A stretch of 26,834 nucleotides of DNA. It comes from a virus. Below the pieces are notes generated by a model, which saw only the letters and a list, made by a program, of their open reading frames with translations, did no database searches and was not told where the DNA came from. Both the position numbers and the translations under genes were made by a program. Position 1 is the stretch's first letter. Each line of letters begins with the position of its first letter. Of this stretch, positions 2,830-17,223 are shown piece after piece. Location of the stretch: IMG/VR virus record IMGVR_UViG_3300035670_001079, positions 1 to 26,834 of that record; one strand, written 5' to 3'.

Positions 2830-4061
2830 TATGAAAATCTTTTAGGTTGTGATTTAGGAAGTGTTGATGTGATTGGGAATAAGTATTCTATTGCGTAACC
2901 TAGTGCATCAGTCATGTGATCGTAACCATTTCCTTTTTCTGGTTGATTTGTACCTTCTTTGTAAACTTGTTTCATTAAGCTATTAATTAGTGTTTTGCAA
3001 GAAGGATTAATAAAAATACTTCTCTTTCCATCAAATGCCTTCAGTTTGCTATTAACAGAATTAATCCTGTCTCTTACTAAAGCATGAGTATTCTTAGCTT
3101 TAACATTTAAACCAGCATTTTGCAATATGGTTAAGTCAGTTCTTCCACCAGCAGAAGTTTTACGTTGTCTTGATGCTGGGTCTGGGTAAACAACCATTTT
3201 AGTTTTTGGGTATCTGCTTAATAGTTCATCAATAAATTCGTCTGTATTTGAACTGTAAATAACTATCTCATCAAAGACATAAGCTATATCGTTTTTAACA
3301 TGGAATAAACAAGCTGACATTGGGTCTATGTTAAAGTCCAAGCCAATATGAATAATAGCATCTTTGTCATACTTACATTCTTGGACATTGTATTCTCTAT
3401 CAAAGTTATAATAAACAACTCCTGAATATGTTTCAAATGAAGCTAAATATTCTTGTCTAAATGTTCTCTCGTCTAAATCTCTTTTGGCTTGTTCAATTTC
3501 TTCTTGATCTACTTGACCACCATCTAATGTAGTGTACTTAAAAGACTTCCATTCTGGGTCATCTCCTAAACCCTTCTGATAAATCTCATAAGACCAGTTA
3601 CCAAATCCTCTAGGTGTTCCTATGAATAATACATTTCCTGTTACGTGTTTATCTGAGATTGTTGGTCGCAGAACTTCGTGCCAAGCCATAGGGTCTATAT
3701 CTGCATACTCATCTAACAGTAAAAAATCTAATCCTACTCCTCGTAAATTGTCTGGTGATTTATCTGCACCTTTTAGACTTATCTGACTACCATTTCTAAG
3801 TATTAAAGTTAGTTCTGTTTCATTAGCATATTTAATCCATCTCTTTTCAGTAGTAAGTCTTTTGATTTGTTTCCACATAATCTCTTTAGACATTCTGTAA
3901 GTAGGTGCTACATAGAATATCTTTGAGTTAGGTTTTCTACTTGCAAATCTAAGTAGTTCATACATGGCTAAGTGTGTCTTGCCGAATCTTCTGCCAGTAA
4001 TTAGAACTCTAAATCTTTTTGGACAAGTATATACAGCTAGTTGTGGTTTACTAAATGGCAT
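2829..4061 (-). CDS. terL: Terminase large subunit (ATPase/nuclease)
   Basis: This is the packaging motor that pumps and cuts phage DNA at the portal. The ATPase domain has Walker A GRRFGKT at 23-29, Walker B FLLLDE at 113-118 (catalytic E118), and a probable coupling motif IGTPRG at 147-152. The RNase-H-like nuclease domain shows its acidic residues in GLDFNIDP (D242), VVYPDPAS (D294) and NGYDHMTDALGYA (D381, D386). At 410 aa it is at the short end but complete. It overlaps the preceding glycosyltransferase-like gene by 11 nt and couples to portal by TAATG. The small-subunit candidate lies about 4.5 kb upstream, beyond an inserted modification cluster. Confidence 0.95.
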   Translation of the reverse strand: MPFSKPQLAVYTCPKRFRVLITGRRFGKTHLAMYELLRFASRKPNSKIFYVAPTYRMSKEIMWKQIKRLTTEKRWIKYANETELTLILRNGSQISLKGADKSPDNLRGVGLDFLLLDEYADIDPMAWHEVLRPTISDKHVTGNVLFIGTPRGFGNWSYEIYQKGLGDDPEWKSFKYTTLDGGQVDQEEIEQAKRDLDERTFRQEYLASFETYSGVVYYNFDREYNVQECKYDKDAIIHIGLDFNIDPMSACLFHVKNDIAYVFDEIVIYSSNTDEFIDELLSRYPKTKMVVYPDPASRQRKTSAGGRTDLTILQNAGLNVKAKNTHALVRDRINSVNSKLKAFDGKRSIFINPSCKTLINSLMKQVYKEGTNQPEKGNGYDHMTDALGYAIEYLFPITSTLPKSQPKRFS

Positions 4062-4596
4062 TGATTAATCCTCTTTGAATTAACTTTGTAATAACTTCTT
4101 CTTCCAGTTTAACATCATGGTTATAACCTTTAGAAGTTCCAATATGACTAACTTCTTCCATTGTATATCTATTCTTTGTTTTAAAGAAATCAAATCCAGT
4201 AATAGTTACTTTGCACTTACAATGATTCAATAACCAATAAATTGCAACAAAGCCAGTAGTTGGTCTGTAATAGTTATATCTAATTGTCATTTGACTGTAA
4301 TCGTATGTGTTCCATAGCCAAGCTTTTTTCTTAACCCAATCAGGCATACGTTCTGCTCTCTTGCCATCTTTTTCAAAGTTTAATCTTACAATACATCTAA
4401 TGTCAGGAATTTCTTTAAGCTTGTTGTGTCCCTCGTAAACTAAATTGTTAATCCAAACATCACATGGTTTATCTTTAACTCCAAGATTCATTCTAACTAC
4501 TGAATTGAATTTGCTATAATCAATAGTTCCTAGTTTCTCACCATTACCTATGAGTAAAACATTCTTGCCTTTGAAGTATTCGTATGGGTCAAACAT
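4051..4596 (-). CDS. GT29-like (sialyltransferase-fold) glycosyltransferase
   Basis: This 181-aa protein resembles the bacterial/phage branch of glycosyltransferase family 29. NVLLIGNG (12-19) looks like the nucleotide-binding start, RMN at 35-37 is typical, and RPTTGFVAIYWLL (111-123) with VTITGFDFF (130-138) matches the long and short sialyl-motif region. NHD at 159-161 is a candidate catalytic histidine. The donor cannot be told from sequence; CMP-sugar use is known for the family only. It is the last gene of a cluster with two GT-A-like transferases and two methyltransferase-like proteins, and it overlaps terL by 11 nt. A target in the virion, DNA or host envelope is possible. Confidence 0.6.
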   Translation of the reverse strand: MFDPYEYFKGKNVLLIGNGEKLGTIDYSKFNSVVRMNLGVKDKPCDVWINNLVYEGHNKLKEIPDIRCIVRLNFEKDGKRAERMPDWVKKKAWLWNTYDYSQMTIRYNYYRPTTGFVAIYWLLNHCKCKVTITGFDFFKTKNRYTMEEVSHIGTSKGYNHDVKLEEEVITKLIQRGLINAI

Positions 4597-5072
4597 TATT
4601 TTGAAAATTCTATTGTGTAATTGTTATAAGGTTTTAATAGTTCTCGCCACCATTTAGCTGATTCAATAGTTGCGTGTGCATTATAACCATTTGGAAGTAT
4701 TGCATTAGCTTTTCTACAACATACCGATAAGAATACCCACTTCTTAGAGTAATTAAATATCTCATCAATAATATCTTTAAGATTATCTACTGGGATATGT
4801 TCTAGTACGTCAGTTGAAATAACTAAATCAAACTTGTCAGTAGGTTTGTTTTGATATTCAGGTACAGCAGGGTCATACTTAGTTGCGTTCCATTCTAAAG
4901 GGTGATGTTTTGCTTTGCCACAACCATAATCTAATATGGTTTCAATGCCTTTGTCTTTTATGATCTGATTAATAGCTGGTATGAATTTCTTTAAAGCTAA
5001 TCCTTGCCAATGTTGTTCCTTTTTGTGATGCTCTTTTGCTTGTTCTAAGTATATGTCGTAAAGATTAGACAT
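4596..5072 (-). CDS. Class I SAM-dependent methyltransferase
   Basis: This 158-aa protein is a small Rossmann-fold methyltransferase. Motif I is ILDYGCGKA (46-54), an acidic second strand follows (KYDPAV), and FDLVISTDVLEHIP (81-94) is the post-II motif typical of Methyltransf_11/23-type enzymes. The C-terminal AKWWRELL segment is also common in these. Such enzymes often act on sugars or small molecules rather than on DNA, and there is no DNA-recognition domain, so glycan methylation within this island is plausible. The start ATG at 5072 overlaps the end of the ParB/methyltransferase fusion by 8 nt, and its stop abuts the GT29-like start. Confidence 0.7.
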   Translation of the reverse strand: MSNLYDIYLEQAKEHHKKEQHWQGLALKKFIPAINQIIKDKGIETILDYGCGKAKHHPLEWNATKYDPAVPEYQNKPTDKFDLVISTDVLEHIPVDNLKDIIDEIFNYSKKWVFLSVCCRKANAILPNGYNAHATIESAKWWRELLKPYNNYTIEFSK

Positions 5073-5994
5073 TTCTAATAACTGCTGTGTGTGGTTTAAG
5101 ATGTTTAAACATTTCTATTTTATGTGGTTTGTGTAGGAAAGCAAAGTTATCTATTCTGTCTGCATCATGTACTACAACTTTATCAGTATGTTTTAATATG
5201 TTGTTAAGATGTTTAATTCTATCTCTTACAAATTGTTCGTGATCTAAAAAGCACATACCATAGTTCTGGTTTAAGAATAGTTCGTTATTAAACTTAACGT
5301 GTAATTGGACATAATTATCACAAGCAAGATAATCAAATCTTCTAGCCCAGTTTATATCTTCTACCATGCTAATTAGTTTAACTCCTTTTTGTTTAGCTAT
5401 CTCTAAAAGCAAAGGTGTTGAGTAATAACCACAACCAGTTTCTAGTATATCTCCATTAGAAGATAGTGCTTCTTTGATTAGTATTTGTTGGTGTGTTGCG
5501 TATTCGTTTATGATTTGTGGTTCGTCAGGCATAATATATTTGTCTATTTTAGTTATTGCAGTTCTGTCTAATTGTAAAGCATCTGCCTTGTGTTTGCCCA
5601 CGTTTTTATAAGTTAATGCTATATTAGAACCTACTTCTCTAGCTTTAACTAAATCTTCATAAACTAATGCGTCTATATGTGTGTAACCATTTTCTATTGC
5701 TGTTTTTATTCTTCTATTGCCATAGATACAAATAAGCTGATTGCCTTCTGCAAGTAAGATAACTGGATTGTATAGTAAATGTGGTTCATCAAATGTTTTC
5801 TTTTTACGTCTCTCTAGTACATCACCAATGTATTTATAATCTTTGATTGAATAGACTAAAACTTGATTCCAGTTCTTATCGCCTTCTTGTCTGTCTATTT
5901 GGCAACAGTATTTAATCTTATTAACTGGTACTGATATTATGTTCTCGTTTCTATGAATACTCTCTAATCTTTTTTCTGATAATTGCTTTTCCAT
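5065..5994 (-). CDS. ParB-like domain fused to methyltransferase-like domain
   Basis: I chose the ATG at 5994 (309 aa). The longer frame would need a TTG at 6042, whereas GGAAAAG lies just before this ATG. Residues 18-115 resemble a ParB/Srx-type domain: ISVPVNKIKY, then NPVILLAEGNQLICIYGNRR with IKTAIENGYTHIDALVYED (92-114), the GxRR element of that fold. Residues about 165-309 have a Rossmann methyltransferase motif, ILETGCGYYSTPLLLEIAKQ (183-202), an acidic strand end (SMVEDINW), FLDHEQFVRDRI and VVVHDADR. ParB-methyltransferase fusions are known from phages, with unclear substrates. It overlaps the upstream glycosyltransferase-like gene by 44 nt and lies inside the glycan island. Confidence 0.6.
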   Translation of the reverse strand: MEKQLSEKRLESIHRNENIISVPVNKIKYCCQIDRQEGDKNWNQVLVYSIKDYKYIGDVLERRKKKTFDEPHLLYNPVILLAEGNQLICIYGNRRIKTAIENGYTHIDALVYEDLVKAREVGSNIALTYKNVGKHKADALQLDRTAITKIDKYIMPDEPQIINEYATHQQILIKEALSSNGDILETGCGYYSTPLLLEIAKQKGVKLISMVEDINWARRFDYLACDNYVQLHVKFNNELFLNQNYGMCFLDHEQFVRDRIKHLNNILKHTDKVVVHDADRIDNFAFLHKPHKIEMFKHLKPHTAVIRNV

Positions 5995-6520
5995 CTTTTC
6001 CAGTCCAATGTATTGTTTTGATATTGTTATTTGTTTCTGCAAGTCTAAGCCATTGATATTCTCTTGGTAAAGTTAAAACTTTGTACTTATGTGCAATCTT
6101 ATTTAAACACTCTTGATCTCCATAGGTAGAAAACTTTTCACATTCTAGCTTCCACTCTTGTAAGAAATCTTGATTGTTACAAACAACTAAACCTGATGCA
6201 AAGTGATTGTTTCTATTGCACCAATCTTCAGTAACAGCAATATCATACCCTTGTGATAGTTCAAATATATCTGATATGTCTGTTAGTATTTCTATGTCGC
6301 TATCAATCCAGCATATTTGTTTTTCTAAAGTTTCTAGCATCATTCTTGGTTTGTAATACCAAGCTTTCATTAAAGGTTTGTAAGATATGCTATTAGGATA
6401 ACTATTCTCTAGTCCAAAGTTAGCTATGTAAAGTTTATTAGTTAGATGTTTGTTGTATGCACGAATAAACCATTGAAGTATATCTTCATGGTCTTTATCG
6501 CTTCCAGTTATAAAGTTCAT
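5951..6520 (-). CDS. GT-A-type glycosyltransferase-like protein
   Basis: This 189-aa protein has a DxD metal/nucleotide-sugar motif in CWIDSDIEIL (D73, D75), preceded by KAWYYKPRMMLETL and followed by FASGLVVCNNQDFLQEW, which is the acceptor-side region seen in GT8-like or GT32-like proteins. TIHWTGKDGK near the C-terminus resembles the HxxG/K phosphate-binding segment of GT8 enzymes. No membrane segment is visible, so it is probably cytoplasmic. It overlaps the next upstream transferase by ATGA at 6517-6520. Donor and acceptor are unknown. The two neighbouring transferases are similar in plan and may have come from a duplication or act in sequence. Confidence 0.65.
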   Translation of the reverse strand: MNFITGSDKDHEDILQWFIRAYNKHLTNKLYIANFGLENSYPNSISYKPLMKAWYYKPRMMLETLEKQICWIDSDIEILTDISDIFELSQGYDIAVTEDWCNRNNHFASGLVVCNNQDFLQEWKLECEKFSTYGDQECLNKIAHKYKVLTLPREYQWLRLAETNNNIKTIHWTGKDGKAIIRKKIREYS

Positions 6521-7185
6521 AACTGAATCTTAACTGTATTCGTATATATGTTAAACCAGTCTGATGAGTATTCGCAATCTTGGTACTTCTCAAAATAACA
6601 ACCACCTTCTGTAAAGTGTATGTTCTTAGCATTGGGATTGTAAGGATATTCTCCTGCTAACCAATTCCATTCTAAAGGTAAGCCACCTACTTGATTATCT
6701 TCTAGCCATTTGAATTGATGCAGTTCTAATCCTGATGCGTTATGAATATAGTGTCTTGATAACTTTGCACATTTAGACGTATTCATTAACATTAGACTAG
6801 ACCAGTTCTTTTTTTCATAAACAGTTTGTATTTGATTGCCGAACTTTGATTCGCTTTTAGGTGTGTAGTTGTGCTGACAACACATAACAGCATAATCATC
6901 ATTTCTTAAATCCCATAGTTCTTTGATATCTGCTTTAAACAGCATATCGCAATCTAGGAATAATGCCCAACCATCATAGTTCATAAGATAAGGAACTATA
7001 AATCTGCTAAATGAAAACTCAGTAGATGATAAACTATTTCTTGGTCTGTTAAATGAATCTTGAATGTTAGGTAAGTAGATTGGTGTAAATGATACTGGTA
7101 CTGAACTGTGTCTTAGTATGCTCTCGCTTAGTATGTGATAAGCTATTTTTTCTTTGCTATCATAACCGATAAAAACCCTAATCAT
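6517..7185 (-). CDS. GT8-like glycosyltransferase
   Basis: This 222-aa protein begins RVFIGYDSKEKIAYHILSES, a start typical of nucleotide-diphospho-sugar transferases in bacteria and marine phages. The DxD motif is FLDCDMLF (D78, D80). SRFIVPYLMNYDGWALFLD before it, SSLMLMNTSKC and WNWLAGEYP after it, and NIHFTEGG near the end fit a complete GT-A domain of the GT8 superfamily. It follows a small coiled-coil ORF with an 8-nt overlap and couples to the second transferase. Its role in decorating virion protein, modified DNA or host polysaccharide cannot be decided from the sequence. Confidence 0.7.
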   Translation of the reverse strand: MIRVFIGYDSKEKIAYHILSESILRHSSVPVSFTPIYLPNIQDSFNRPRNSLSSTEFSFSRFIVPYLMNYDGWALFLDCDMLFKADIKELWDLRNDDYAVMCCQHNYTPKSESKFGNQIQTVYEKKNWSSLMLMNTSKCAKLSRHYIHNASGLELHQFKWLEDNQVGGLPLEWNWLAGEYPYNPNAKNIHFTEGGCYFEKYQDCEYSSDWFNIYTNTVKIQL

Positions 7186-12584: not shown

Positions 12585-12593
12585 TTATCCACA
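12585..12593 (+). promoter_or_regulatory. Perfect DnaA box TTATCCACA
   Basis: The 9-mer TTATCCACA is identical to the strong E. coli R1/R4 consensus and overlaps the end of an AT-rich repeat. By hand I found three other exact matches to TTAT(A/C)CACA in the window: 16441-16449 and 21426-21434 (both in genes) and 18649-18657 (between genes). One or two are expected by chance at this composition, so location is the stronger evidence. Confidence 0.5.
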
Positions 12594-12612
12594 GCTATTT
12601 TGATATTTAAAG

Positions 12613-12640
12613 TTGCAATAAAAAAACAAATCATTATATT
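12613..12640 (+). promoter_or_regulatory. Candidate promoter of the right operon
   Basis: TTGCAA (12613-12618) and TATATT (12635-12640) are separated by 16 bp and lie 32 nt upstream of the first rightward start codon, leaving space for a short leader with the GGGA ribosome site. A very similar sequence, TTGCAAT followed by ACAAAT and TTATAT, precedes the gene at 16012. The sigma-70-like fit is moderate. Confidence 0.4.
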
Positions 12641-12671
12641 GATTTTATATTAATAAACATAAAGGGAAAAT

Positions 12672-12929
12672 ATGAAAGAAAAAATAACAAAGCTAAAAGA
12701 CAAAAATATTTATGAAATTTTATATAAGAAAAAATTATATAAGATTGAAGAATATTTTAAACCTAGAGAGATAACTCCATACGACCCATTAAAACACAAC
12801 CAAGTTGTTTTGATGAAATTTGTAAAAAGTTTAAGTTATCCTAATGGTGGATATTTTTGGCAAGTGTTAGCATTTAATAACACAACAGAAGCAAAAGAAT
12901 ATCTTATAAACAAAAGCGAAGTAATATGA
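12672..12929 (+). CDS. Hypothetical early protein, 85 aa
   Basis: This is the first rightward gene after the divergent region, with AAAGGGA before the ATG. The protein is Lys-rich at the N-terminus and carries a central hydrophobic strand set (NQVVLMKFVK, GYFWQVLAF), ending in an acidic helix (TTEAKEYLINKSE). No family is recognised. Its place at the head of the operon suggests early expression, and thus a possible host-takeover or regulatory role. Its stop overlaps the next tiny ORF as ATGA. Confidence 0.65.
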   Translation: MKEKITKLKDKNIYEILYKKKLYKIEEYFKPREITPYDPLKHNQVVLMKFVKSLSYPNGGYFWQVLAFNNTTEAKEYLINKSEVI

Positions 12930-13015
12930 AAAAACAATTAGCAAAATTACTCAAATCATACCATAAGAAATGGGATTGCTTTGGTAGATTAATTAAATGC
13001 AAAAAAAAAAAATAA
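12926..13015 (+). CDS. Possible micro-protein, 29 aa
   Basis: The frame starts at the ATGA overlap with the upstream gene and ends in a run of 12 A residues (13001-13012), coding for a basic peptide (LLKSYHKKWDCFGRLIKC, then four Lys). The overlap favours translation, but length and low complexity make this uncertain. A frameshift on the A-run would join it to the following ORF. Confidence 0.35.
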   Translation: MKKQLAKLLKSYHKKWDCFGRLIKCKKKK

Positions 13016-13179
13016 ATATGATTTTTTCAATGACTGATTTTGAAATGCAACTTGTATTAGCTTCATTAAGAAAAACTTTAAAAGATAAAGTTATGGAAAA
13101 CAATAGATACAATAGCAATTTAAAAAAACTTGAAATAAAAATAAACAGAATGATTGAAAGGCAAAAACCTTATGCTTGA
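12997..13179 (+). CDS. Small helical protein, up to 60 aa
   Basis: The frame can begin at 12997 or at the internal ATG 13018, since neither has a clear Shine-Dalgarno. The core (MTDFEMQLVLASLRKTLKDK) and the Lys/Arg-rich end form one or two amphipathic helices. No family is recognised. The stop overlaps the start of a small membrane peptide. Confidence 0.5.
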   Translation: MQKKKINMIFSMTDFEMQLVLASLRKTLKDKVMENNRYNSNLKKLEIKINRMIERQKPYA

Positions 13180-13258
13180 TACAATTAATGATTTAGGATT
13201 TTATTGGTTTTGTTTTGCAGTAATACTAACAATTATAATATGGGAGTTAAATAAATGA
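13172..13258 (+). CDS. Single-span membrane micro-protein, 28 aa
   Basis: ATG 13172 overlaps the end of the preceding gene and the stop overlaps the next ATG (ATGA at 13255-13258). Residues 10-24 (FYWFCFAVILTIIIW) form one probable transmembrane helix that makes up half of the peptide. No Shine-Dalgarno is evident, so coupling is needed. Early phage membrane peptides can affect host membrane proteins or block superinfection; this is only a possibility here. Confidence 0.45.
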   Translation: MLDTINDLGFYWFCFAVILTIIIWELNK

Positions 13259-13347
13259 CTAGAGAAACTAAAGATGGAATAGGATTTGTGCTTGTGTTTG
13301 TATTAGGCACGTCAAGCATAATATTATTAAATTGGCTAATTAATTAA
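13255..13347 (+). CDS. Single-span membrane micro-protein, 30 aa
   Basis: This ORF is coupled to the preceding membrane peptide by ATGA. After a polar start, residues 9-29 (IGFVLVFVLGTSSIILLNWL) form one hydrophobic helix. The pair of consecutive one-helix peptides is unlikely to be two unrelated accidents, but no family is recognised. Confidence 0.45.
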   Translation: MTRETKDGIGFVLVFVLGTSSIILLNWLIN

Positions 13348-13349
13348 TT

Positions 13350-13526
13350 ATGAAAAGAACTGTTGATATTGATATACTGAATGGTTGTGCTGAAATTATG
13401 AAAAAGTATTTTGTTGTGCAAGAATTTTCAGGAAGCAAAATATCAAGTTATGAAAAAGCAATTTACAACGCATTAAAACTAGCTATAAATGGTAAAAGAA
13501 AAGATGAACTTTTTAAAAAAAGATAA
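13350..13526 (+). CDS. Small helical protein, 58 aa
   Basis: The ATG at 13350 lies two bases after the preceding stop. The protein is mixed charged helix (LNGCAEIMKKYFVVQEF, then SYEKAIYNALKLAINGKRKD) with a basic C-terminus. It overlaps the next ORF by 23 nt in another frame. I do not recognise a family. Confidence 0.5.
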   Translation: MKRTVDIDILNGCAEIMKKYFVVQEFSGSKISSYEKAIYNALKLAINGKRKDELFKKR

Positions 13527-13647
13527 TAGTAAAGCTTTAGGCGATTCCATTATGCGTGTTAAAATGGAAGAAGCTTTAAAGAAGTATCAAGAACGATTAG
13601 AAAAACAAAAACTGGAGAAGGCAAATGAAAAACAAAAAAAAGATTGA
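13504..13647 (+). CDS. Small charged helical protein, 47 aa
   Basis: The frame begins inside the end of the preceding ORF and ends 23 nt inside the next. The C-terminal two thirds (MEEALKKYQERLEKQKLEKA) is a strongly charged single helix, like many phage micro-proteins. The sequence GGAGAAGG for the next gene lies inside it. Evidence is position and composition only. Confidence 0.4.
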   Translation: MNFLKKDNSKALGDSIMRVKMEEALKKYQERLEKQKLEKANEKQKKD

Positions 13648-13861
13648 ACTACATTACGCAGAAAAACATCTAAAAGAATTAATTAAAAATAATCGCTTTT
13701 ACACAATTCTTGAATACATACTTGAAGTATGGAAACACAAACCAAGAATAAAAAAAATAGACATAGCTAATATTGTTACTATGGACTATCTTAATCAACA
13801 AACAAAAGAGGGAAAAAACAATGAGAATAATATTAAGTTTATTAATTTTAAGCTTAACTAG
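13625..13861 (+). CDS. Hypothetical protein, 78 aa
   Basis: ATG 13625 has a good Shine-Dalgarno (GGAGAAGG). The protein is Lys/Ile-rich with a central helical region (FYTILEYILEVWKHKPRIKK) and a polar tail. It overlaps the start of the lipoprotein gene by 41 nt. The tail after about residue 60 is encoded only in that overlap and has low complexity. No family is recognised. Confidence 0.5.
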   Translation: MKNKKKIELHYAEKHLKELIKNNRFYTILEYILEVWKHKPRIKKIDIANIVTMDYLNQQTKEGKNNENNIKFINFKLN

Positions 13862-14126
13862 TTGTAGTACGTACAAGCCCATAATTGATTCCAAAGGGAG
13901 AGCAGGTACTTGGAATGAACCTAGAGCAACTGAAATCACAGATGACATTCAACATTGTACTATGTTAGCTGACCAACACATAACAACTAGTATGGAGATA
14001 CAAAACTTTATAATTTTGAATATACTTAGACCTGCAAGTTTTGGAGTTGTTTCTGTGCCAGAAGATACTAAAAAAAATTATATTAAAAACTGTTTGAAAG
14101 GAAGAAATCATAATGTCATTAATTAA
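13821..14126 (+). CDS. Phage lipoprotein, 101 aa
   Basis: I chose ATG 13821, which has AGAGGGAAA upstream and opens a perfect lipoprotein signal: MRIILSLLILSLTSC, with the lipobox LTSC and acylated C15. An upstream in-frame start would bury this signal. The mature part (about 87 aa) has a conserved-looking YKPIIDSKGRAGTW segment, an acidic DDIQHC region and two cysteines (C46 and C91) that may pair. It would sit on the periplasmic face of inner or outer membrane. It lies in the early rightward operon rather than with lysis genes, so superinfection exclusion is more likely than an Rz1-type spanin, but this is inferred. Confidence 0.7.
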   Translation: MRIILSLLILSLTSCSTYKPIIDSKGRAGTWNEPRATEITDDIQHCTMLADQHITTSMEIQNFIILNILRPASFGVVSVPEDTKKNYIKNCLKGRNHNVIN

Positions 14127-14355
14127 AACAGTACAACAAGAAATAGATAGACTTTATTTAGAATCTAAAATGAATAGATATATAGTTTCTAATGAAGCAT
14201 CACTTTACTATGATTTATGTTCTGTGGTTGATAAAACAATAACTTTAGATGAGTTCTATAAGTTGTTCCCTTATCATAACCCAGACATAAATTCTGATTA
14301 CTGGAAACAACAACACAACAGATGGAAGGAAATATGGAAACAAGACGCAGTATAA
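14113..14355 (+). CDS. Hypothetical protein, 80 aa
   Basis: ATG 14113 overlaps the lipoprotein end by 14 nt and has GGAAG upstream. The protein is aromatic-rich (SLYYDLCSVV, LDEFYKLFPYHNPD, DYWKQQHNRWKEIW). It is soluble and probably helical. No family is recognised. Its end overlaps the XRE regulator start by 22 nt, and the sequence GGAAGGAA for that gene lies inside its last codons. Confidence 0.55.
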   Translation: MSLIKTVQQEIDRLYLESKMNRYIVSNEASLYYDLCSVVDKTITLDEFYKLFPYHNPDINSDYWKQQHNRWKEIWKQDAV

Positions 14356-14636
14356 ATGAACGATTAGCAAGTAATCTTAGATTCTTGCGACACAATACTA
14401 AAGTTGAAGAACCTATAACAGCAAAAGTAAGATACATGAGTCAAAGAATGTTGGCAGAATTTATTGGTTCTCATACTCAGCAAATAAGTAAATTTGAACT
14501 TGGAACTAATCAGTTAAGTGCCAGTCAGCTTTATAGAATTGCTAAATTGTTTGGTTTGCCAGTTGATAAATTATTTGATGAAAACTTACCCAAATCAGTT
14601 TATACAAAAACAATAAAGCAAAATATTTATACTTAA
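14334..14636 (+). CDS. XRE/Cro-family transcription regulator
   Basis: I chose ATG 14334 rather than 14322 because GGAAGGAA lies directly upstream (100 aa). Residues 36-62 (MSQRMLAEFIGSHTQQISKF, then ELGTNQ) and the following SASQLYRIAKLFGLPVDKLF are a textbook Cro/CI-type helix-turn-helix fold. It would bind an operator, perhaps one of the palindromes reported here. No peptidase or multimerisation domain follows, so it is more like Cro or a single-domain regulator than a CI repressor. With no integrase visible, lysogeny cannot be concluded. Confidence 0.8.
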   Translation: METRRSINERLASNLRFLRHNTKVEEPITAKVRYMSQRMLAEFIGSHTQQISKFELGTNQLSASQLYRIAKLFGLPVDKLFDENLPKSVYTKTIKQNIYT

Positions 14637-14653
14637 ACAAAAGGGAAGGTAAA

Positions 14654-15388
14654 ATGGAAGAAATCAAATTATACAATGGTCAAGAAACTTTATTCTTTGA
14701 CCCAATTCAACATCAATACTTTTGGAATGATGAGCAGTTGCCTAGTGCTACTGGAATAACCAAAATCTTGACACCAGCTAATGTGATCGGCTTATGGTCA
14801 GCTAAGATATGTTCTGAAGAATTTAAAAAGTTAGTAAGAGCAGGTGTTAGCTATGATGAAATTGAATTATCTAAGATTGCAGATCAAATTAAAAAAGCAC
14901 CTAATCAAAGTATGTCTGATGCTGGTTCAGTTGGTACTCACGTTCATAACTTAATTGAAGATTATATTCATAAAGGAATTGTTCCTGAGATACATAATCC
15001 TGAGATTAAAAAATCATTTGGTAAGTTTAAAGAATGGTACGACAAGCAAGAAGGTTTAGAGATTGTATTTACTGAACGTAAAGTATTAAGTCGTATTCAT
15101 AAGTTTACTGGAACTCTTGATGCTTTATTTAAAAACAAATCAGGAGAGCATATTATCTATGACTGGAAGTCATCATCAGGAATAAGAGATTCTATGTTAG
15201 TGCAAATCTATCTTTATAAGATTTGTGTTATGGAAGAACTTGGAATTGATGTTAAGCAAGGTGTGATAGTTAATTGCACCAAACAAGGTAAACTAAATAT
15301 TAAGGAATTTCCAATAGGCGAAATACAAGCAGATGTGGCGATAGCTTGTCTAAAAATGTATCGCTACCTAAACAATAAGGAGAAATAA
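14654..15388 (+). CDS. RecB/Cas4-like PD-(D/E)XK exonuclease
   Basis: This 244-aa protein carries the motifs of the phage PDDEXK_1-type nuclease family. GTHVHNLIED (94-103) supplies the first helix histidine and glutamate, FTGTLDALF (151-159) the catalytic Asp, and IIYDWKSSSG (167-176) the D-x-K pair (D170, K172), followed by QIYLYKI (184-190), the usual QxxxY helix. There are no four-cysteine clusters, so no iron-sulfur site is expected. It probably processes double-stranded DNA ends in recombination or replication. A gene for a possible ssDNA-binding protein follows after one base. Shine-Dalgarno GGGAAGG precedes the ATG. Confidence 0.8.
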   Translation: MEEIKLYNGQETLFFDPIQHQYFWNDEQLPSATGITKILTPANVIGLWSAKICSEEFKKLVRAGVSYDEIELSKIADQIKKAPNQSMSDAGSVGTHVHNLIEDYIHKGIVPEIHNPEIKKSFGKFKEWYDKQEGLEIVFTERKVLSRIHKFTGTLDALFKNKSGEHIIYDWKSSSGIRDSMLVQIYLYKICVMEELGIDVKQGVIVNCTKQGKLNIKEFPIGEIQADVAIACLKMYRYLNNKEK

Positions 15389-15389
15389 C

Positions 15390-15887
15390 ATGAACGTACA
15401 AGGTGTTATAAAATACGTTTACGACAATAGGTTAGGAAAAGATGGTCAAGCCAATAAGTTTCCTAATTTTAAATTTGGTATAGGAGACCAGCAAATTGTT
15501 TTATGGTCTGCTATTTTACACCCTGCAATAGCAAAAGGTAAAAAAGTATCTGTTGCTGTTCAGGCATCAAAAAAGAATGGCAGTTTATTTGTGCAAACAA
15601 ATGAAAAGAAACAACCAATAATTCAAGAACTTCCTTCTGATGAAGCAAAACCAGATACAAGTTTTGACCCAGAAGAACTTGAAAAAGAATTGGTAGAAGT
15701 TGCTAAAGACTTTGATGCTGATTTGACAGTTGAACCTAAAAAACAATTTAATAAAGATGAGTATATGTTTACTATGGCTTTATTAAAATCAGGTATTGAA
15801 TCTGGCAAAATTGGTGTTACAAAGGAAGAAATTGATTTGAAAATAAAAGATTATAAGTTTTTATTTCAGATGAATTTCCATAACTAA
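15390..15887 (+). CDS. Putative ssDNA-binding / recombination partner protein
   Basis: This 165-aa protein has an N-terminal beta-rich part (VQGVIKYVYDNRLG...FPNFKFGIG...IVLWSAIL, then GKKVSVAVQAS) that could be an OB fold. An acidic middle linker (DPEELEKELVEVAKDFDADL) and a C-terminal helical domain (EYMFTMALLKSGIESGKIGV) follow. It starts directly after the RecB-like nuclease with AAGGAGA before the ATG. This pairing and layout suggest an ssDNA-binding or annealing protein. No clear SSB signature or acidic tip is present, so the function is an inference from fold-like pattern and context. Confidence 0.5.
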   Translation: MNVQGVIKYVYDNRLGKDGQANKFPNFKFGIGDQQIVLWSAILHPAIAKGKKVSVAVQASKKNGSLFVQTNEKKQPIIQELPSDEAKPDTSFDPEELEKELVEVAKDFDADLTVEPKKQFNKDEYMFTMALLKSGIESGKIGVTKEEIDLKIKDYKFLFQMNFHN

Positions 15888-15893
15888 GATTTT

Positions 15894-15972
15894 TATGGCG
15901 AAGGTTTTTTTTAGATGTTCCTTGTTAGATTGTCTAAAAAACACAAATCCCCTTTTGTTTTCCTTCGCCATA
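15894..15972. ncRNA. Candidate structured RNA: three-way junction
   Basis: An 11-bp perfect inverted repeat (15894-15904 with 15962-15972, arm ATGGCGAAGG plus a flanking T-A) closes a segment with two further stems. P2 is 15907-15915 with 15933-15941, nine Watson-Crick pairs plus two G-U pairs. P3 is 15943-15947 with 15954-15958, five pairs with a TCCCCT loop. Junction linkers are 2, 1 and 3 nt. It lies in a 124-bp gap after the ssDNA-binding-like gene. No T-tract follows on either side of the main stem, and it is not a tRNA. Strand and transcription are unknown; upstream read-through would give the rightward RNA. Confidence 0.45.
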
Positions 15973-15975
15973 TCC

Positions 15976-16004
15976 TTGCAATTTAAACAAATATTATATA
16001 TAAA
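15976..16004 (+). promoter_or_regulatory. Candidate promoter before the 68-aa gene
   Basis: TTGCAA (15976-15981), a 17-bp spacer and TATAAA (15999-16004) lie 7 nt before the ATG at 16012. The first transcribed base would then be at or near the start codon, giving an almost leaderless mRNA; this fits the lack of a Shine-Dalgarno. The sequence closely resembles the promoter candidate at 12613-12640. Confidence 0.4.
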
Positions 16005-16011
16005 AAACATA

Positions 16012-16218
16012 ATGAAGGTAGTTAGAGAAAAGTTAATTGAGTGTTCTATTTTAGTTAAAGAACTATTTGAGAATACAGAAGATGCTCTAACTGAAAAAAA
16101 GGAAGGAAAGATTATTTCTGTGGATATACTAAATACAAAGTTCATTAGAAATAATATTAAAATAGCTGATGGAGAAAATGAAAACTCAAGTTCAGAACCT
16201 AAGAGACAGGCATCATAG
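16012..16218 (+). CDS. Hypothetical protein, 68 aa
   Basis: I chose the ATG at 16012. The same frame extends upstream to 15895, but that part reads through the inverted-repeat structure and codes for an implausible peptide. The protein is a helical region (REKLIECSILVKELFENTED) followed by a possible beta segment (GKIISVDILNTKFIR) and a Ser/Glu-rich tail. No family is recognised. A promoter candidate is directly upstream, and GGAGA for the next gene lies near the end. Confidence 0.5.
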   Translation: MKVVREKLIECSILVKELFENTEDALTEKKEGKIISVDILNTKFIRNNIKIADGENENSSSEPKRQAS

Positions 16219-16327
16219 AGTATCTATGAAGTATTTTGAACTAAAGCATAAAATGGAAAAGGCAAAAAGACTTAAAGATGCTTTAGAAACAAAAGTGGTT
16301 TTGAAATTTGAAGAATTACTAGCTTAG
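16178..16327 (+). CDS. Small basic helical protein, 49 aa
   Basis: ATG 16178 has GGAGA just upstream and overlaps the preceding gene by 41 nt. The protein is basic and helical (MKYFELKHKMEKAKRLKDAL). No family is recognised. Good ribosome site and absence of another gene in 16219-16362 support it. Confidence 0.5.
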   Translation: MKTQVQNLRDRHHRVSMKYFELKHKMEKAKRLKDALETKVVLKFEELLA

Positions 16328-16362
16328 GTTAGTATTACAACTTAAAAATGTAAAGGAAGGTT

Positions 16363-16701
16363 ATGGAAGATTTTGCTCTAAAGAATCCTGATACAATAAA
16401 ACAAGAACTAGATTCGGTATCAGAAGAAATGTCTAATGCGTTATACACATTTAGACGTTGCGAAGAATTTAAAAAAATAACATTTGCACAATTAACTCTT
16501 ACTAAGAAATTAGAAAAGAATTGTAGTGTAAGCGAAGCAGAAAAGTGGGCTTATGCTGATAATAACTATGCAACATTAGTAGAAGGTTTATTAGTTGCAG
16601 AAAAAAACTATTCAATTCTAAAAGGCAAGTATGCTAACTTACAGTCTTGGGTAGATTTATATAGAAGCTGGTTAGTTACTAATCGTGAACTGAGTCGTTA
16701 A
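16363..16701 (+). CDS. Conserved-looking helical phage protein, 112 aa
   Basis: ATG 16363 has a strong ribosome site (AAGGAAGG). The protein is all-helical: ELDSVSEEMSNALYTFRRCE, then KITFAQLTLTKKLEKN, SEAEKWAYADNNYATLVEGL, and a last helix ending WVDLYRSWL. This layout recalls short phage proteins of unknown role in replication regions. It is followed with no gap by the PD-(D/E)XK-like gene (TAAATG), so the two are probably translated together and may act together. An exact DnaA-box match (16441-16449) in it is probably chance. Confidence 0.6.
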   Translation: MEDFALKNPDTIKQELDSVSEEMSNALYTFRRCEEFKKITFAQLTLTKKLEKNCSVSEAEKWAYADNNYATLVEGLLVAEKNYSILKGKYANLQSWVDLYRSWLVTNRELSR

Positions 16702-17223
16702 ATGAATGAAAAAAAATATATTAATAACTTTAATGAACAGTCTTATGAAAATCGCACGACTAATTATCTTAACATTAGTGAGGATCGTTTCGTTAATTAC
16801 TGCCTTAATCGTGGCTATCTTTACAGGAAGCTTGGTCTTAATGCTGTTAATGATTCTCAATCTTTCGCTGAAAGTGTTATACCTTTGTTTGCCAAACTCC
16901 CAACCCTTATCAAAGCTTTCCCAGACTACTTCGTTTACGCACCTAAAGAAGCACATAAGCAAGAGCAGTTCTTTGTTGAATTAAAGAACGCAACTTGGGA
17001 ACATGGCAAGACTTTAACTAAGATAAAAGTTAGAGATATTAAAAGATATATTTATTTTGAACAAGCTTTCACAAACTATCATACTAAATTCACAATTTGC
17101 TTTCCTTTAGCTGATAAGATTATTTTTAAAAGTGTAGATCAAATATTAAAGCTACTACCAAAATCGCAATTAAAATGCTTTCCAAATGATAGTATAGAAT
17201 ACTTTGAAGTACAGTTAAATTAG
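16702..17223 (+). CDS. Putative PD-(D/E)XK nuclease, 173 aa
   Basis: Residues 68-96 contain TLIKAFPDYFVYAP and, 17 residues after the PD, FFVELKNA. This gives P74-D75 and E93-x-K95, the spacing of a PD-(D/E)XK active site, with predicted beta strands around both. The helix KVRDIKRYIYFEQAFTNYHT after it and the strand FTICFPLAD also fit the fold. Such proteins include resolvases and restriction-like enzymes. I do not recognise a specific family. It closes the rightward operon and its stop overlaps, tail to tail, the stop of the leftward gene at 17220. Confidence 0.5.
   Translation: MNEKKYINNFNEQSYENRTTNYLNISEDRFVNYCLNRGYLYRKLGLNAVNDSQSFAESVIPLFAKLPTLIKAFPDYFVYAPKEAHKQEQFFVELKNATWEHGKTLTKIKVRDIKRYIYFEQAFTNYHTKFTICFPLADKIIFKSVDQILKLLPKSQLKCFPNDSIEYFEVQLN

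Follow-up and report, generated by a model that had tools for sequence, protein, structure and literature searches.

A conserved structured element behind the exonuclease and ssb-like genes of a phage operon is a candidate antisense RNA for its own operon's ribosome-binding sites

A segment that folds almost completely on itself, directly behind an exonuclease gene and an ssb-like gene, raises the question of what such a structure does in a viral genome. We analysed this question for positions 15894-15972 of IMG/VR record IMGVR_UViG_3300035670_001079; the window is the whole stretch of 26,834 nucleotides (26.8 kb), and its large terminase shares 56% identity with those of the Pelagibacter phages HTVC026P and HTVC202P. 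A preliminary description, made from the sequence alone, had seen a three-way junction here and listed a regulatory RNA, an antisense or decoy RNA, a processing site and a structured DNA site as possible identities. A rightward operon at 12672-17223 includes a lipoprotein-like gene, the exonuclease gene and the ssb-like gene, among others. The reported setting, after a RecB-like/ssDNA-binding-like pair and before a candidate promoter, was borne out by the features of the locus:

14654-15388, + strand: PD-(D/E)XK (RecB/Cas4-like) exonuclease gene, a predicted target of the element (PHROG 298, E 6e-27; Pfam PDDEXK_1)
15390-15887, + strand: ssb-like gene (no Pfam or PHROG match; weak OB-fold likeness to RPA)
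15894-15904, + strand: 5' arm of closing stem A, TATGGCGAAGG (11 bp with the 3' arm; fold and covariation)
15907-15941, + strand: stem-loop B, core arms 15907-15915/15933-15941 (fold; variable, missing from some relatives)
15943-15958, + strand: stem-loop C, arms 15943-15947/15954-15958 (5 bp), loop UCCCCU at 15948-15953
15950-15960, + strand: putative antisense segment CCCUUUUGUUU, holding the CCCUU common to the loops of relatives
15962-15972, + strand: 3' arm of closing stem A, CCTTCGCCATA (fold and covariation)
15976-16004, + strand: sigma70-like promoter TTGCAA-17-TATAAA, conserved in relatives and preceding the next gene (ATG 16012)

The three stems A, B and C, with the lengths and the linkers of 2, 1 and 3 nt described earlier, reappeared in place as the minimum-energy fold of the region, with 2 bp added by the model to the core arms of stem B. 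With short flanks (15884-15982) the fold reaches -26.5 kcal/mol, compared with a shuffled mean of -12.2 kcal/mol (z -5.5, matched by 0 of 200 shuffles), and the bare element at 15894-15972 gives z -6.4. Folding of both strands against shuffled controls had been proposed at the outset; in the window sequence alone the minus strand folds nearly equally well (z -5.45), and the + strand also folds as DNA (z -6.0). The element starts 6 nt past the ssb stop codon, and its 3' end lies directly before the conserved promoter-like block.

Several conventional identities were discarded. An intrinsic terminator, which combines a GC-rich hairpin with a T-tract, is rejected because the 3' flank, ATATCCTTGC, has no T-tract, and a tRNA search of the element was negative; the preliminary description was right on both points. 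Its statement that no convincing ORF explains the segment holds in part: an open frame at 15895-16218 does cross the element, and this frame is broken by stops in two relatives (L042 and L070) and shifted elsewhere, which argues against coding through the element. Rfam yielded no gathering-level match in the window or in the distant loci, c4 model included, and the DUF2815 RNA (RF03084) stayed below gathering level. Sub-threshold RF03084 matches occur directly upstream of the ssb-like gene in two relatives (L038:5934-6003 and L019:3235-3303); they overlap coding sequence and may just mirror the purine-rich ribosome-binding site.

Searches with the ssb-like protein provided relatives at 37 and then 59 viral loci, and wherever a relative's sequence includes the DNA behind ssb, an inverted-repeat element lies there. 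Compensatory change in the stems had been set beforehand as the test that could overturn the structure, and the structure survived it. In stem A, 8 of the 12 aligned pairs change on both sides, with pairing in 95.8% of cells; a covariation score of 0.384 (0.145 in shuffles) was reached by 0 of 500 shuffles, and sliding the partner of stem A abolishes the signal. With distant relatives counted, the closing-stem arms come in about a dozen different sequences. G-U pairs hold on the + strand, minus-strand pairs are lost in L022, L038, L041 and L070, and for most element types the + strand gives the better fold of the inner, loop-bearing region. The G·U pairs and the folding in relatives thus favour the + strand as the RNA strand.

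A covariance-model search, also proposed earlier, found a single matching place per genome among the relatives, and this single copy at one fixed place rules out a mobile element or repeated site. An alternative pairing between loop and stem was dropped, as it is not universal across groups. The element is absent behind the gene at the ssb position in four Pelagibacter phages; in HTVC026P this place holds just a short plain hairpin. No ssb-like relatives were found in the bacterial genome contigs searched; the flank pattern gave ten matches in such contigs, all in unrelated bacteria, and a viral match to it (L101) was a GC-rich chance match. Three further candidates from the first pattern scan (L002, L004 and L005) resemble hairpins formed by chance in unrelated GC-rich sequence.

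The three-way junction itself did not hold up as the core feature: the number of stems in relatives ranges from three down to one, with the closing stem standing alone in L041. The constant parts of the element are the long closing stem, a C-rich loop and the location directly behind the stop codon of ssb. CCCTT (CCCUU) is the sole 5-mer present in 12 of 12 distinct inner loops of the first relative set, with 0.55 of 12 expected, and its CCC has an unpaired probability of 0.86-1.0 across 13 element types. The conserved feature is the single-stranded loop UUCCCUUU, not the junction. The sequence of this loop complements AAAGGGAA, an unusual ribosome-binding leader that precedes several of the operon's genes. 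Three such leaders in the window are predicted targets:

12655-12666, + strand: leader of the first gene, AAACATAAAGGG (pairing with one bulge)
13800-13812, + strand: leader of the lipoprotein-like gene (13821-14126), AAACAAAAGAGGG (one bulge)
14635-14645, + strand: leader of the exonuclease gene, AAACAAAAGGG (11-nt perfect complement of 15950-15960)

Window duplexes with the loop come to -15.7 kcal/mol for the lipoprotein-like gene (the best in the operon), -14.9 for the exonuclease gene, -11.1 for the first gene and -8.7 for the ssb-like gene, whose leader, AAGGAGAAA, lies outside the targeted type. The exonuclease leader, AAACAAAAGGGAAGG, is of the same kind as that of the first gene, and the lipoprotein-like gene shares this kind of leader in many relatives. 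The first-gene leader AAACATAAAGGGAAAATATG is constant among relatives despite the differing first-gene protein. Exact loop-leader runs of 9-13 nt are found in several genomes; L061, L063 and L059 share the loop UCCCUUUAUGUUU, which is complementary over 13 nt to the leader of the first gene, with a best duplex of about -19 kcal/mol. In L068 and L069 the element is present, the exonuclease leader is AAAAATGGGGAAGG, and an AAGGGA leader is absent elsewhere in the available part of the operon. The motif is missing before the exonuclease gene in L201 and L208, the former retaining the leader before other genes.

An exonuclease-based scan extended the comparison to distant phages with divergent ssb proteins, and all those examined that have a complete next gene carry a long inverted repeat after ssb. 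These distant elements, many with unrelated arms (GAGTGGCAAAG, GTGGCAAA, TAGTGGCC, AACCCCAGCT and TAAGCGAGAGG), fold with z -4.1 to -6.6, and distant relatives with unrelated arms after ssb have the UUCCCUUU loop plus AAACAAAGGGAAAA leaders. In the GTGGCAAA clade, the loop is UUUUCCCUUU and the leaders before the first gene, the lipoprotein gene, the exonuclease gene and others are AAAGGGAAAA. The TAGTGGC clade has AAAAGGAGAUAA before its first and lipoprotein genes and AAAAGAGGAUAA before the exonuclease gene; its loop, UUAUCCCCUUUU, forms 11 of 12 pairs with each of the two leader versions (counted by hand), as expected of a compromise between targets. CCCTT is lost in L188; its loop, UUUUAUCUCUUU, forms a 12-nt duplex, one G-U pair included, with the leader of its exonuclease gene, AAAGAGGUAAAA. 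Where the leaders are of the AAAAGGAGAUAA type, the clade carries UUAUCCCCUUUU or UUUUAUCUCUUU as its loop. Across six clades, loops fit better with leaders from their own clade, at rank 10 among 720 permutations, a fit that mainly reflects two specificity classes, AAAGGGAA and AAAAGGAGAUAA. For the extended part of the loop, inspection by eye inside the main clade gave no clear own-genome co-variation, which is seen between clades only.

In silico, the analysis demonstrates a conserved structure, a strand preference, loop-leader complementarity and clade co-variation. From the list of identities first offered, this evidence favours the antisense option. Judged from these sequence patterns, the element is probably an operon-end antisense RNA that represses translation by pairing with Shine-Dalgarno regions within its own operon. 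Read on the + strand, the element would form the 3' untranslated end of the mRNA of the early exonuclease-ssb operon, and a small RNA might then be cut out of that mRNA. The closing stem would hold and shield the single-stranded UUCCCUUU loop, which would pair with the AAAGGGAA leaders of the first gene, the lipoprotein-like gene and the exonuclease gene and so block ribosome binding, with ssb, through its AAGGAG leader, mostly escaping repression. The predicted outcome is a delayed negative feedback on early translation, because the RNA would exist only after transcription reaches the operon end. Within ssb we found no conserved promoter-like block indicative of an independent promoter, and synonymous identity rises mildly near the end of the gene.

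A hairpin in this position might instead serve as a 3'-end stabiliser or processing site, guarding the exonuclease-ssb mRNA from 3' exonucleases and marking the boundary to the next transcription unit, with the C-rich loop incidental or protein-bound. A long perfect stem 5-7 nt past the stop codon in nearly all relatives, the missing T-tract and the conserved promoter directly downstream are all consistent with that function. We nevertheless consider it unlikely, as it leaves unexplained a loop motif that is kept while the stems change, the matching leader motif and the co-variation. A stabilising role could also hold in addition to the antisense role.

The complementarity could also be a by-product of purine-rich leaders meeting a pyrimidine-rich loop, in an RNA structured for some other regulatory reason; AAAGGGAA itself may be no more than a strong ribosome-binding site for early genes. 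When the loop is shuffled with its composition kept, the result often pairs equally well with the purine-rich leaders, and only about 7 of 24 genomes beat the shuffles at ~0.05. What makes a by-product quite unlikely, in our judgement, is the combination of exact 9-13 nt runs, clade-specific co-variation and the restriction of AAAGGG leaders by strand and lineage. AAGGGA leaders precede 68 of 277 + strand genes versus 5 of 337 minus-strand genes (Fisher 2.7e-20), or 59 of 220 versus 4 of 281 when distinct leaders only are taken, p-values here overstating the evidence because the relatives are not independent. AAAGGG is the most strand-biased of all 6-mers (59 versus 2) and AAACAA the second; together they form the complement of UUCCCUUU.UGUUU, that is, of the loop and its 3' side. 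Five related phages that do not carry the element have AAGGGA in 1 of 251 leaders and AAGGAG in 21. In silico, the leader motif is thus confined to the operon studied here and to element-carrying phages.

A protein-binding RNA operator could work, for instance, through the neighbouring OB-fold ssb-like protein, as autoregulation, or through a KH/S1 protein of the host that recognises the C-rich loop. The element always adjoins ssb, and the model of the ssb-like protein is OB-fold-like; a fixed protein site does not predict a loop that shifts with the leaders across clades, or one whose motif is retained beside strongly divergent ssb proteins, and we regard this explanation as highly improbable. 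A structured single-stranded DNA site (a primosome- or origin-like hairpin) for phage replication or recombination, in keeping with the position in a recombination operon and with the folding of the + strand as DNA, is scarcely credible given the fixed place behind a stop codon, the leader complementarity and the absence of the leader in phages that lack the element, the last two of which it does not explain.

The c4 RNA and its target come from one transcript, in which c4 lies upstream of the target. In phages P1 and P7 the loops of this small antisense RNA are complementary to the region where ribosomes bind a phage mRNA, and the RNA blocks translation (PMC12197685). The element resembles c4 in having a loop complementary to a ribosome-binding region of its own operon (11 nt for the exonuclease gene, up to 13 nt for first-gene leaders); it differs in its position at the operon 3' end, in matching several genes and in giving no Rfam c4 match. 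The alphaproteobacterial alpha-r14/cuckoo sRNAs (NfeR1 and others) keep a conserved anti-Shine-Dalgarno motif in unpaired loops while their stems diverge (PMC10746234), and the element likewise has an invariant anti-SD loop on divergent stems. Those RNAs are trans-acting and bacterial, with three hairpins bearing CCUCCUCCC, whereas the element has one C-rich loop in place of several such hairpins, a stem-enclosed UUCCCUUU with predicted targets in its own operon. In Staphylococcus aureus, an accessible UCCC loop of the Rsa RNAs and RNAIII pairs with Shine-Dalgarno sequences (PMC3861533); organism, structure and regulon all differ from those of the element, and no relatedness is implied. Lambda OOP and P22 sar are phage antisense RNAs that control phage mRNAs by pairing (PMC12197685). 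Each is described with a single phage mRNA as its target, and neither is operon-terminal, whereas the element is matched to several ribosome-binding sites.

To our knowledge, translation control by a self-encoded RNA is undescribed in pelagiphage-like viruses. On balance, we lean towards a new family of phage regulatory RNAs, in which an operon-terminal hairpin with a loop co-evolving with several leaders of its own operon, in a clade-specific matched code, would impose delayed translational feedback on early genes. If true, these phages would possess a compact feedback device that acts on several targets and whose target code can be read, separating the expression of the exonuclease and early cargo from that of ssb within one mRNA, and the matched leader would offer a simple signature for locating the regulon in metagenomic phages.

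A few further observations concern the surrounding genome. A low-confidence model of the ssb-like protein resembles RPA-type OB folds. In L034, L038 and L056, the block corresponding to window 15976-16014 has a next gene starting MTVIREKL and a TATAAT that overlaps its ATG; a transcript from that block could therefore not include that start codon. The divergent intergenic region at 12585-12672 contains a DnaA-box-like site, TTATCCACA, a TTGCAA-16-TATATT promoter and the AAACATAAAGGGAAAATATG leader, all three kept in relatives; the gene behind it differs in most relatives, so that the constant leader is followed by a slot for variable cargo. Beside the terminase, a minus-strand cassette at window 4051-7185 holds glycosyltransferase- and methyltransferase-like genes, and a comparable set is annotated in phage DSL-LC06.
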